Source: Tritonibacter litoralis
Lineage (GTDB): Bacteria; Pseudomonadota; Alphaproteobacteria; Rhodobacterales; Rhodobacteraceae
Assembly: GCF_009496005.1 (NCBI RefSeq)
Contig: NZ_WIBF01000001.1
Coordinates: forward strand, 496,001-560,000
DNA: 64,000 nucleotides
Direction of reading: 5' to 3'
This document shows, piece by piece, positions 40,711-44,665 of the stretch (position 1 is the stretch's first letter; each line of letters starts with the position of its first letter). The translations under genes were made by a program, and so were the position numbers. Under the pieces are notes generated by a model. That model was not told where the DNA came from, ran no database searches, and saw nothing but the letters and a program-made list of their open reading frames with translations.

Positions 40711-43224
40711 TTACTCCGCCGCAATTTGGCGCAATTCGGAGGTCAAGATACCCTCAGATTCCTGCCAGACCTCGCCAAACTGATCGCAGGCAGGTGGCCG
40801 ATCTTCAGCACCGATTTCGATTTCTTGCAAACAACGGCGCAGACTCGCTAGGCCCAATACCGCTGCTGACCCTGCAAGCCTATGGGATTCAGTCCGTAGT
40901 TCTCTCGAAATGTCTCCGCCTTTGGACAGCTCTGCCGCAAACAGGGCGATTTCATCTAGGAATCGGATCAGAAACTCCTGCGCCTTTTCCGCCCCCAAGG
41001 CTTCAAAAAACTGGGCGATATCCGAGCCCAATTCCTCTTCGCTTTCCCCAGTTCCAGGCCGTAATGCGCGGCGTCCGATCACCTCGACCAGCTGGCGTTT
41101 GTTGACCGGCTTGGTCAGGATCTCAGCAAAACCAGCGGCCAGAATGCGCGCATGATCTTTTGACGCAGCATGCGCCGTGAGCGCCACAACATCTGTTTGT
41201 GGCGCCAAGTTGCGCGCCCGGATCCGCCGGATCGCTTCGATTCCGTCGACTTCTGGCATGCTGATGTCCATCAGAATCAAATCAAAATGGTTCTTAGCAA
41301 CCAAAGCAACGGCTTCCGCCCCTCCAGAGGCAGCCGTTACATTGTGTCCCATCAACTCCAACATCTTCTGGAGCAGCTCGCGGTTTACGTCATTGTCTTC
41401 CACAACCAGCAAGCGCGCGGAGCGGCGGTCGACCTCGGACCGGCTCATGACACCAGACGTGGAATTGTCGACAACCGGCAAAGGCGTACGAATGATAAAG
41501 GTGCTGCCCTCCCCAACCTCGCTTTCGCAAGTGATCTCTCCACCCATCGCCGCCACCATCCGGCGCGTGATCGCAAGGCCAAGACCGGTCCCCTCGCTCA
41601 TGCGGCCATAGCTGGAATCAAGCGTTACGAAATCCTCGAAGATGCGTTCCAGATGTTCCGGCGCAATGCCCTTGCCGGTGTCAGCGACCTGGAATTCCAC
41701 CATGTCGCCATCATGGTCACGGCTGATTTCAACCATAACCGCTCCATTGCGCGTGAATTTCAGCGCATTGCCCACCAGGTTCAACAGGGTTTGCTGGATC
41801 GCACGCGGCATGCCTTTTACAAACCGGGAGCCACCAAGGTTGCAATAGACTGAGAGATCATTCCCCGTGGTCTGTGCAGTCGCTTGCTGACTGGCGACCA
41901 AACCTTCGACCAAATCGACCAGGTCAAACGAGGTCTCCTCTTCCGGGGCGACATCCGCTTCCAGCCGCGAAAGCTCCAAAACATCGTTGACATGTTGCAG
42001 CAGCAGCTCGCCCGACACCCGCATGGCTCGCAGATACTTGCGCTGGGTGGCCGTGGGCTGCTCGCTCTCCATAATCTCGATCGCGCCCAATACACCCGTC
42101 AACGGCGTACGCATCTCGTGGCTCATGACGGTCAGAAGATTGGCTTTGGCCCGCTCCCCCGCCAATGCATCGTCCCGCGCGGCGCGCAGCTCCGCCTCGG
42201 CCGCGTAGCGATCTGAAATATCGCGCAAATAGCTGACAAACACGGTGTCATCATCCGTCACCGTTGGGGTGATGGACAATTCAACCGGGAAGACTTCGCC
42301 AGATTTGCGCATCCCTTCCAGTTCGATCCGCCCATTTGTGGCAACGGTGGATTTCCCGGTTTTTAAAAACCGGGCTAGCCCTTTTCGATGGGCGTCACGA
42401 TGGTGGGTCGGCACAATCAACTGGGCCATATCCGAGCCCAGCGCTTCGTCGCGTTTGTAACCAAACACAGTTTGGGCTGCGCCATTATACTCCACGATCT
42501 GACCCTGGCTGTTCATCACCAGGATGGCATCCAACGACGAGGACACCATGGCCTTCATCCGCGCAGCACTGCGGGCCCGTGCCGCAGCAAGGCTGCGAAC
42601 CCGGCGATACAGCACCGCCAGCAGCAATGCGGTCAAACCCAAAGCGGAGACCAGAACGAACACAACAGAAGCCAGTTGCGACAGCAGCCGATGCAGGTCC
42701 AGGCGTTTTTGCTTGTTCTCTTCGGAATAGACATTCAGGCCCGCAATGGCGAGCGCGCGAATATCCTCCCGGTTTTCAAATACTTGCGCGCGGAACGCAT
42801 CCATCTTTTGCAGGAACTCTGCATCGCTGGAATCAACAAAAGCCGCAAGCTCATCCAAACGTTCCTGAACATGCATGAGCAGTTCATTCGCTGTTTTATC
42901 CGCACGCAATGGGACAAACACCGAGCTTTCGCGCACAGTTGTGATGCGGCTGTAGAACACATCAAAAGCCCGGCGCAGGTCCCGCAGGTCTTCTTCTTGC
43001 TGGGTGGCCAGTGCACGGTTTTCGACCTTGAGGTATTCCACCTCGATTTGGGTGAGGTTCCAACGCAGGTTGTCGGTCTGCGCCGTCGATAATTCCTGAA
43101 GGCGGGTCAGAATCTTGCTGCCAAGCCATATCGACTCTCCAAACAGCAAGAGCAGAATAACAATGCCAAATGCCGCAACGCCACGACGGAACCGCCGCAA
43201 TTTCCGCTCTTGCTGACTGTACAT
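40711..43224 (-). CDS. Hybrid sensor histidine kinase (PAS-HisKA-HATPase-REC-Hpt)
   Basis: An 837-residue membrane kinase with a full phosphorelay. Membrane helices at about 14-36 and 182-206 flank a periplasmic helical sensor. A PAS domain spans about 222-340 (SSLDAILVMNSQGQIVEYNG). The H box is MSHEMRTPLTG (His369). The ATPase domain has NLVGNALKFT, DTGKGIAPEH and GTGLGLAIT. The receiver Asp653 is in LILMDISMPEVDG, and a C-terminal Hpt domain has His781 in SHRLAGSAAVLGL. It is 15 bases downstream of the periplasmic SUOX-fold gene and opposite the LuxR regulator gene, so a three-part signalling system is likely. The signal is unknown. Confidence 0.92.
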   Translation of the reverse strand: MYSQQERKLRRFRRGVAAFGIVILLLLFGESIWLGSKILTRLQELSTAQTDNLRWNLTQIEVEYLKVENRALATQQEEDLRDLRRAFDVFYSRITTVRESSVFVPLRADKTANELLMHVQERLDELAAFVDSSDAEFLQKMDAFRAQVFENREDIRALAIAGLNVYSEENKQKRLDLHRLLSQLASVVFVLVSALGLTALLLAVLYRRVRSLAAARARSAARMKAMVSSSLDAILVMNSQGQIVEYNGAAQTVFGYKRDEALGSDMAQLIVPTHHRDAHRKGLARFLKTGKSTVATNGRIELEGMRKSGEVFPVELSITPTVTDDDTVFVSYLRDISDRYAAEAELRAARDDALAGERAKANLLTVMSHEMRTPLTGVLGAIEIMESEQPTATQRKYLRAMRVSGELLLQHVNDVLELSRLEADVAPEEETSFDLVDLVEGLVASQQATAQTTGNDLSVYCNLGGSRFVKGMPRAIQQTLLNLVGNALKFTRNGAVMVEISRDHDGDMVEFQVADTGKGIAPEHLERIFEDFVTLDSSYGRMSEGTGLGLAITRRMVAAMGGEITCESEVGEGSTFIIRTPLPVVDNSTSGVMSRSEVDRRSARLLVVEDNDVNRELLQKMLELMGHNVTAASGGAEAVALVAKNHFDLILMDISMPEVDGIEAIRRIRARNLAPQTDVVALTAHAASKDHARILAAGFAEILTKPVNKRQLVEVIGRRALRPGTGESEEELGSDIAQFFEALGAEKAQEFLIRFLDEIALFAAELSKGGDISRELRTESHRLAGSAAVLGLASLRRCLQEIEIGAEDRPPACDQFGEVWQESEGILTSELRQIAAE

Positions 43225-43239
43225 GCCCGCCCCCTAGGT

Positions 43240-43737
43240 TCAGTTTTTCACGACCAGTTTTTCCAGCTGCCAGATGCTGCGGGAATAGATCGCTTCGGTG
43301 CGGTAGTCGGCGCTGCTGTCATAGGGGTAGACAATCCACAGCGGGCCTTTGTTGCGGATGCTCATCTGGCTCCCATTGCGTTCAAAGGCGATTATGGGGC
43401 CATTTTCGACGGCATCGCTCACCGGGATTTTCACCGAATAGGCGTTGATCGCCACGGCCTCAATCTCTTCCCCGGTCAAGTCCAGCTCAGAAACCAGCGC
43501 GGCCAGCGGCACACCGGTGAAGGTCTGCATGCCTTCGGTCCAGATGGTCTCCGTTTCAAACGAGGACACAGGCAGCGCGCGCAGCTGGTCCATCGTATAG
43601 CTTTGTGTTGTGGTCACCCCGCTATCGGCCGCAAGGATTTCAACCGTCAGAACCGGCTCTTCTCCAGCGAGGGTCGCTGTGCTTAGTGCAATCACGGCCA
43701 TCAGCGTTGCTGCAACCGTTGTGATGATACCCTTCAT
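43240..43737 (-). CDS. Periplasmic sulfite-oxidase-fold protein without cysteine
   Basis: A 165-residue exported protein (signal about residues 1-23, ending TLAGEE). The mature part has TWSL-type sulfite-oxidase/molybdopterin-domain features: FTGVPLAALVSELDLTGEEI, VAINAYSVKIPVSDA, IAFERNGSQMSIRNKGPLWI and VYPYD. The whole protein contains no cysteine, so the molybdenum ligand of true family enzymes is absent and catalysis is unlikely. It is the first gene of a two-gene unit with the hybrid kinase, which suggests a periplasmic ligand-binding partner of that sensor. The ATG at 43737 gives the best signal peptide. Confidence 0.8.
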   Translation of the reverse strand: MKGIITTVAATLMAVIALSTATLAGEEPVLTVEILAADSGVTTTQSYTMDQLRALPVSSFETETIWTEGMQTFTGVPLAALVSELDLTGEEIEAVAINAYSVKIPVSDAVENGPIIAFERNGSQMSIRNKGPLWIVYPYDSSADYRTEAIYSRSIWQLEKLVVKN

Positions 43738-43948
43738 CAAAATACTCCTTCTCAGACACATCCAAGGGTTTGACCGCACTATTGCATAGGGATTGTCCCG
43801 CCGCATTGGCCCGCCCGGATAGTGGAGTATTCTTTCGTATATTACTTTCAAACATCTGAATAATACGCCCTAGCCATCGTAGTGGCAGCGTAAAAAGTCA
43901 TTTCAAACTAATCTTAAGTGCATAAAGTTACATATTTTGGAGTCTTCT

Positions 43949-44665
43949 ATGTCAGCATATGCCACACAATCTTTGGGCGAAATTCAGGATTTGGAAAGAA
44001 TTCCGCCTATATATTCGGAGACCAGTAACACGAGTAGGGTGTCGCAACTGATGCGAATTTTGATTGCAGACGACCATGACATGGTGCGTGAAACGATTTC
44101 TGCCTATCTGACATCCGAAGGCGGGGCGGAAGTCACGACAGCAATTGACCTGCAATCCGCCTTGGTCGAGCTGGAAGGCAGTGGCCCTTTTGATCTGGTG
44201 CTGCTGGACTACAATATGCCCGGTATGATGGGGCTGGATGGTTTGTCCCGCGCCCTCGCCGCAAATGGCGGTAAAGGGGTTGGCATTTTGTCAGGAACCG
44301 CACCACCACGCACGGCTCAGGACGCGCTGGACGCCGGTGCCATTGGCTTTATTCCCAAAACAATGGGTGCCAAGTCGCTGCTAAACGCCGTCCGCTTCAT
44401 GAGCGCTGGTGAAATCTATATGCCGGTTGAACTGATGCGCGAGCAAGCCAACAGCGATACGCACCCGCTGGCTCAAAAGCTCAGCCCGCGTGAGTTGGAA
44501 GTCCTGGGTGGACTCAGCCGGGGTCTGTCGAACAAGGAAATTGCGCGCGAACTGGACCTGCAGGAAGTGACGATCAAGCTGCATGTGCGTACCCTGTGCC
44601 GCAAACTGGAAGCCAAGAACCGCACCCAGGCCGCGCTGATCGCAAAAGAAGCCGGTTTGTTCTGA
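43949..44665 (+). CDS. LuxR/FixJ-type response regulator
   Basis: A 238-residue regulator. An N-terminal extension of about 34 residues precedes the receiver domain (MRILIADDHDMVRETISAYL), with Asp87 in LVLLDYNMPGMMG and Lys in GFIPKTMGA. The C-terminal GerE HTH is LSPRELEVLGGLSRGLSNKE followed by IARELDLQEVTIKLHVR. It is divergent from the SUOX-fold/hybrid-kinase pair across about 210 bases and is the obvious phosphorelay output. A start at the internal ATG before RILIADD is possible, but TTGGAG lies well placed for 43949. Confidence 0.9.
   Translation: MSAYATQSLGEIQDLERIPPIYSETSNTSRVSQLMRILIADDHDMVRETISAYLTSEGGAEVTTAIDLQSALVELEGSGPFDLVLLDYNMPGMMGLDGLSRALAANGGKGVGILSGTAPPRTAQDALDAGAIGFIPKTMGAKSLLNAVRFMSAGEIYMPVELMREQANSDTHPLAQKLSPRELEVLGGLSRGLSNKEIARELDLQEVTIKLHVRTLCRKLEAKNRTQAALIAKEAGLF

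Follow-up and report, generated by a model that had tools for sequence, protein, structure and literature searches.

A protein with the fold of the SUOX enzymes and no cysteine to bind molybdenum, encoded directly upstream of a membrane-bound sensor kinase, raises the question of what it does there. The pair lies in a 64-kb window of the Tritonibacter litoralis genome (positions 496,001 to 560,000 of contig NZ_WIBF01000001.1; the window is the whole stretch analysed, and coordinates below are counted from its first base). It forms part of a three-gene module in which the SUOX-fold gene and the gene for a hybrid PAS kinase lie on the reverse strand and the gene for a LuxR-type regulator lies divergently on the forward strand. 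An earlier note, made from the sequence of this DNA, had described a cysteine-free SUOX-fold gene, a hybrid PAS kinase gene that follows it after 15 bases, and a divergent LuxR regulator, and all three genes were confirmed. The module is identified here, with a probability of about 0.8, as a PruR-DTB pterin-signalling pair together with its response regulator.

PruR of Agrobacterium tumefaciens is a periplasmic protein that lacks a molybdenum-ligand cysteine, binds reduced pterins and docks on DcpA, according to a 2026 review (PMC13259868). Section 8 of the review gives the name PruR-DTB systems to the many cases in which a PruR gene precedes a kinase whose periplasmic domain is of DcpA type, with a WX7E motif, and its Figure 5 gives a PAS-HisKA-HATPase-REC example from Ruegeria pomeroyi DSS-3 (WP_011045932.1). 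The earlier note, which knew of no described system of this composition, was therefore wrong on this point. Its proposal that an SUOX fold without a molybdenum ligand acts as the ligand-binding partner of the kinase agrees, at the level of sequence, with the published PruR model.

Identity of the SUOX-fold protein

The pruR gene (43240 to 43737, reverse strand) starts at an ATG at 43737 with GGAG upstream. It encodes 165 residues with a hydrophobic N-terminus, the secretion signal being assessed by eye only, and the entire protein contains no cysteine. A phmmer search of the PDB matched four sequences (7kos/7kou, 7rkb, 7kp2 and 7kom) at E values between 2e-26 and 2e-17; pterin-binding protein is the name given to three of them, and 7kom is titled PruR. 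The best match, 7kos ('Pterin Binding Protein', E 2e-26), reached 1.3e-47 in a profile search, and putative sulfite oxidases trailed in the phmmer search at E 0.1. The predicted structure (mean predicted local distance difference test score, pLDDT, 87.1) had its best fold matches to 7kos and similar entries at E 1.2e-14. The seven best PDB chains were all PruR, from Agrobacterium, Klebsiella, Vibrio vulnificus and V. cholerae, and the SUOX enzymes came next, from E 1.1e-6.

Conservation was followed in 120 family loci, which are 120 of the 150 pruR matches listed (further matches exist), loci at contig ends and some others being omitted. The conserved residues are N98, Y100, R128, G131-P132, W134 and W156, with Y100 and W156 present in 120/120 relatives and N98 in 118/120. 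W156, Y100 and N98 align with the pocket residues of 7kos at the spacing (56 and 2) given in PMC13259868. Residue 99, between the conserved pocket Asn and Tyr, is Ala in the window and Asp in 110 of the 120 relatives (INAY for INDY), and the Ala may alter ligand preference. On this sequence evidence the SUOX-fold protein is a PruR relative, a periplasmic pterin-binding protein, with pterin binding predicted here.

The protein passes Pfam PF00174 (28.2 bits; cut-off 24) and its relatives are publicly annotated as 'molybdopterin-dependent oxidoreductase', which would suit a periplasmic molybdenum enzyme or redox protein. Such a function is highly improbable, as the nearest structures are PruR with the SUOX enzymes far behind, and 119 of the 120 relatives have no cysteine after the signal peptide, the sole exception having one near residue 49. 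The earlier note had raised the possibility that homologues retain a ligand cysteine, and these counts speak against it. SorT, YedY/MsrP and sulfite oxidase share the fold of the window protein, but it lacks their molybdenum-ligand cysteine and has 165 residues compared to about 260–460 in the solved enzymes. Cysteine is present in both remaining PF00174 proteins of the same genome, in motifs that were read by eye and that we take to be SoxC- and MsrP-like. A MAFFT alignment for the ligand cysteine column against the genome's own SUOX enzymes was misaligned and discarded, and the column was dropped because PruR has no cysteine anywhere. In a plasmid collection a PruR-like match was present in 252 Klebsiella records, and 265 of the 496 matching records were typed as conjugative.

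The kinase and its sensor domain

The gene for the DTB-type hybrid histidine kinase (40711 to 43224, reverse strand; 837 residues) starts at 43224, 15 bases past the pruR stop. Pfam matches and motif positions gave the order transmembrane segment, periplasmic four-helix domain, transmembrane segment, PAS, HisKA (H369), HATPase, REC (D653) and a weak Hpt (H781), with two hydrophobic segments at about residues 12–40 and 177–209. PAS, HisKA, HATPase and REC were all above the Pfam cut-off; PAS and REC as claimed in the earlier note thus stood, while its Hpt domain fell just below. The top NCBIfam model was TorS at 333 bits, far under its cut-off of 676.5, and a Pfam search at E 0.001 found no GGDEF or EAL output domain in the kinase.

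The periplasmic domain (residues 34–182; 42679 to 43125, reverse strand) was compared by hhalign with a DcpA-type profile of eight domains, two of them from unannotated records and six from proteins whose annotation names GGDEF or EAL. The alignment covered 176 columns with a probability of 98.3 and an E value of 2.7e-14, compared to probabilities of 0.2 for part of a different sensor kinase encoded in the window and 0.0 for a cytoplasmic segment of this kinase. The domain was modelled as all-helical (mean pLDDT 94.8); its fold gave no PDB match below E 0.001 and its sequence no Pfam match. The WX7E motif (W55 to E63; 43036 to 43062, reverse strand) has its W kept in 7 and its E in all 8 of the profile domains. 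Of 108 family kinases, 100 have the W, 76 have the E (a further 25 have D at that position) and 70 have both W and E; in the set A2 both are invariant by selection, since its members were picked for WX7E. By profile and motif, the kinase carries a DcpA-type sensor domain with WX7E.

Comparison with known systems

The module resembles the PruR-DTB systems of PMC13259868 in that pruR immediately precedes the gene for a membrane sensor, and in that this sensor has a DcpA-type periplasmic domain, WX7E and a TorS/BaeS-like kinase with PAS and REC. Nothing essential sets it apart; it adds an Hpt domain, which is weak, and a response regulator encoded divergently, the R. pomeroyi system being compared by description only. 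The PruR-DcpA system of A. tumefaciens (sections 5 and 7 of the same source; 7kos, 7kou) has a homologous PruR, and the periplasmic domain of the window kinase is homologous to DcpA-type domains of bacteria other than A. tumefaciens. The output in A. tumefaciens is a GGDEF-EAL protein, whereas that of the module in the window is a histidine kinase and a transcription factor. XylFII-LytS (5xsj) and QseG-QseE (9m08) also join a partner protein to a helical kinase sensor domain; their weak fold matches (E 0.11 and 0.29) are a resemblance of fold only.

The module is therefore a member of a described family, and the regulator, a DNA box and a polysaccharide link are its new and testable part. No earlier account of these three was found in the literature searched, the query for the box being judged by part of the titles. 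The phrase 'response regulator' does not occur in PMC13259868, and the primary PruR paper may mention one.

Linkage of the regulator to the pair

The LuxR/NarL-type response regulator (44051 to 44665, forward strand; D53 and K103) was assigned from Pfam, motifs and adjacency to pruR. Its open reading frame opens at 43937 and has the same end, 44665, as in the earlier note. The start at 44051 (MRILIADDHD) is more likely than that at 43937 because three of twelve aligned relatives (L113, L054 and L136) have no earlier in-frame start.

The family was surveyed in 295 genomes of 294 genera, a PruR match being accepted at E up to 1e-8 and a regulator match at E up to 1e-35. PruR was matched in 166 genomes and the regulator in 152, with both in 136, PruR alone in 30, the regulator alone in 16 and neither in 113. 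The regulator was accordingly present in 136/166 genomes with pruR compared to 16/129 without (Fisher p 5e-35, relatedness ignored). In the 104 genomes with both genes among the matches listed (150 per gene), the genome-wide best regulator match lay within 6 kb of pruR in 79 and was divergent in 74, whereas by a rough estimate (12 kb in a genome of about 4 Mb) chance would place it there in fewer than 1% of genomes.

A kinase was present at pruR in 114 of the 120 family loci, 108 by the first rule and six more that overlap the pruR end by more than 60 bases, so that the pair is linked in relatives, the point on which the earlier note had advised a check. One further locus has a GGDEF protein at pruR. 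Among the 108 first-rule kinases REC was found in 101 and PAS in 98; 92 of these loci also have the LuxR regulator, 89 of them divergently. In named loci (the best 80 of 567, which overlap the 120 and are not summed with them) the kinase was present in 73, with the regulator in 65 of those, divergent in 64. Because relatives throughout the family keep this neighbourhood, the gene arrangement is not a product of chance, and these comparisons support the divergent LuxR-type regulator as a conserved third part of the PruR-kinase module.

The pair could be genuine and the adjacent regulator could answer another kinase, with the PruR-linked kinase signalling elsewhere. This would fit the persistence of the regulator in the 16/129 genomes without a pruR match, its best match lying away from a listed pruR in 25/104 genomes, and the absence of the words 'response regulator' from PMC13259868. 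The divergent adjacency in 74/104 genomes, in a survey of 294 genera, and the greater frequency of the box where the regulator is present (41/98 compared to 3/22 loci) make it distinctly unlikely that the regulator is not the partner.

An extension of the three-gene order to Rhizobium was rejected, as no receiver was matched in the LuxR-type gene found there, which is only 29% identical over 69 residues of the helix-turn-helix region. On a plasmid of Rhizobium sp. AB2/73 (L239:3791-8759) this LuxR-type gene is divergent from a pruR-kinase pair and is followed by a gene for an HD-domain phosphohydrolase; the arrangement resembles the window's order, with a different kind of regulator.

A conserved box upstream of pruR

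When the spacer that separates pruR from the regulator gene was aligned for 13 loci, one strongly conserved block stood out, from which a matrix was built that gave the palindrome CTATCCN4GGATAG. The exact pattern TATMCNNNNGKATA was found upstream of pruR in 45/120 loci and 29 times elsewhere, whereas four scrambled palindromes each gave 0 upstream and 1 elsewhere. With the spacer set to 5 or 3 bases there were no matches upstream of pruR, and 0 and 3, respectively, elsewhere. When the arms CTATCC/GGATAG were allowed up to one mismatch the box was upstream of pruR in 44/120 loci and occurred 51 times elsewhere. Thirty permuted arms averaged 0.03 loci upstream of pruR, with 1 as the highest count, and 2.6 matches elsewhere, with 12 as the highest. 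It was upstream of pruR in 41/98 loci with the regulator and 3/22 without, and in the upstream stretch of 30/100 regulator genes.

In the window the copy is imperfect (TATACGAAAGAATA) and is followed by a third half-site CTATCC, 80–104 bases before the pruR ATG. The 25-base form, TATACGAAAGAATACTCCACTATCC (43817 to 43841, reverse strand), has a single copy in the T. litoralis genome at up to two mismatches, the one at pruR. From the conserved block and the pattern scans, 43817–43841 is a predicted operator, to which the regulator would bind. Some 50 bases ahead of the likely regulator start the aligned relatives share another short conserved stretch, where GGTTTCGAAACC is exact in 2/13 loci (L037 and L041).

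The presence of the box upstream of 30/100 regulator genes would also fit an outside DNA-binding protein that controls the module and the polysaccharide genes described below, the LuxR-type regulator having other targets. A palindrome suits a dimeric LuxR-type protein, however, and the box goes with the presence of the regulator, and we consider control from outside unlikely.

A polysaccharide locus in relatives

The neighbours of the 120 loci were clustered and single representatives were named by Pfam. A recurring set comprised a WecG/bacterial sugar transferase, a GT2 protein, a Wzy-like protein (the representative scoring 28.8 bits, below the cut-off of 31.7), Wzx, a Wza-type export protein and a 492-residue protein with no Pfam match. 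In 16/120 loci the module lies within such a Wzx/Wzy-type polysaccharide locus, defined by three or more of five markers. The regulator is present in all 16, and the kinase was found in 14 by the first rule and in the other two, L147 and L185, by the wider reading.

The box was present before the gene for the 492-residue protein in 12/16 cases, Wzx in 9/15, Wza in 10/15 and WecG in 7/18, mostly 93–112 bases before the start of the open reading frame for the first two and at scattered positions for Wza and WecG, whose starts are mechanical. Before the kinase (0/118), Wzy (0/16) and GT2 (0/32) genes no box was found, and these genes are taken to be operon-internal. Permuted-arm means were 0 to 0.03 across the six exopolysaccharide clusters, and among five further neighbour clusters one had the box, in 1/56 genes over all five.

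Sulfitobacter faviae and Ruegeria sp. B32 are annotated examples of relatives with the polysaccharide genes, and their regulators are 55% identical to that of the window over all 204 residues. In S. faviae boxes or near-boxes were located at three places: ahead of pruR, ahead of the hypothetical-protein/O-antigen-ligase genes, and in the space separating the export and flippase genes. In Ruegeria sp. B32 pruR is preceded by a full box and the regulator by a near-box, whereas the other two have half-sites only; an additional match lies within the kinase gene.

The T. litoralis genome and points against the reading

Several results weigh against the identification of the module or its extension to transcription. 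In the kinase, Hpt scored 23.7 bits against a cut-off of 24.6, with its His motif at residue 781, and the window's Hpt region had a BLAST match in only 19/108 family kinases. No sensor gene was found at pruR in 5/120 loci (L119, L184, L189, L195 and L212), the 25/104 genomes with a distant regulator have been given above, and 76/120 loci have no box upstream of pruR at up to one mismatch. In T. litoralis itself a search without a positive control found no match to two exopolysaccharide proteins, and a box scan of the genome at up to one mismatch showed no excess over the reversed control (10 compared to 10, in 5 sites compared to 5). Nor was a PruA/FolM-type reductase with TGX3RXG present among the genomic matches examined.

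The last result covers 8 of 11 SDR matches to TIGR02685 and five to Escherichia coli FolM, the best FolM match being 27% identical (E 4.9e-9). The motifs obtained had Gly, not Arg, at the key position; those of L243, L287 and L291 are not among them. As an observation on pterin genes elsewhere, a plasmid of Aminobacter sp. SR38 (L240:4390-7938) carries a pruR-dcpA (EAL) pair adjoining an annotated 6-carboxytetrahydropterin synthase gene, which encodes a pterin enzyme and is linked by the record to queuosine.

A scan of both strands of the T. litoralis genome with the box pattern gave 24 matches compared to 21 in the reversed control, again no excess. Three exact copies of the palindrome (C1:311434, C2:109354 and C23:212558) are not claimed as regulon sites: the genes beside them look, from translations read by eye only, like YicC/Gmk, TrpA and a UbiG-like protein, and the copy at C23:212558 lies between convergent ends of open reading frames, as a terminator would. 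The likely role of the regulator in this genome is autoregulation.

Proposed mechanism and implications

In the mechanism proposed for the PruR-DTB pair and its regulator, periplasmic PruR would bind a small reduced pterin in its truncated SUOX pocket, as in A. tumefaciens, and would dock on the kinase's periplasmic four-helix domain, as it does on DcpA there, altering kinase activity. The phosphoryl group would then pass from H369 to D653, through Hpt H781 or another Hpt protein, to D53 of the divergent regulator. The regulator would bind CTATCCN4GGATAG, degenerate in the window, and control the pruR-kinase operon in a direction that may be positive or negative; in relatives that carry one, it would also control the Wzx/Wzy-type exopolysaccharide locus. 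We lean towards the reading that PruR, the DTB kinase and the regulator constitute a single phosphorelay from pterin to transcription, equipped with an operator of its own, which in a subset of the family directly switches a Wzx/Wzy exopolysaccharide locus.

The sections of PMC13259868 cited here are silent on the targets of the kinase branch of PruR signalling. The question becomes directly testable through a conserved partner regulator, a defined DNA box and the polysaccharide locus linked to them in marine bacteria that are named and in culture. If the reading is true, pterins would control the biofilm matrix by transcription, parallel to the cyclic di-GMP route known from Agrobacterium.

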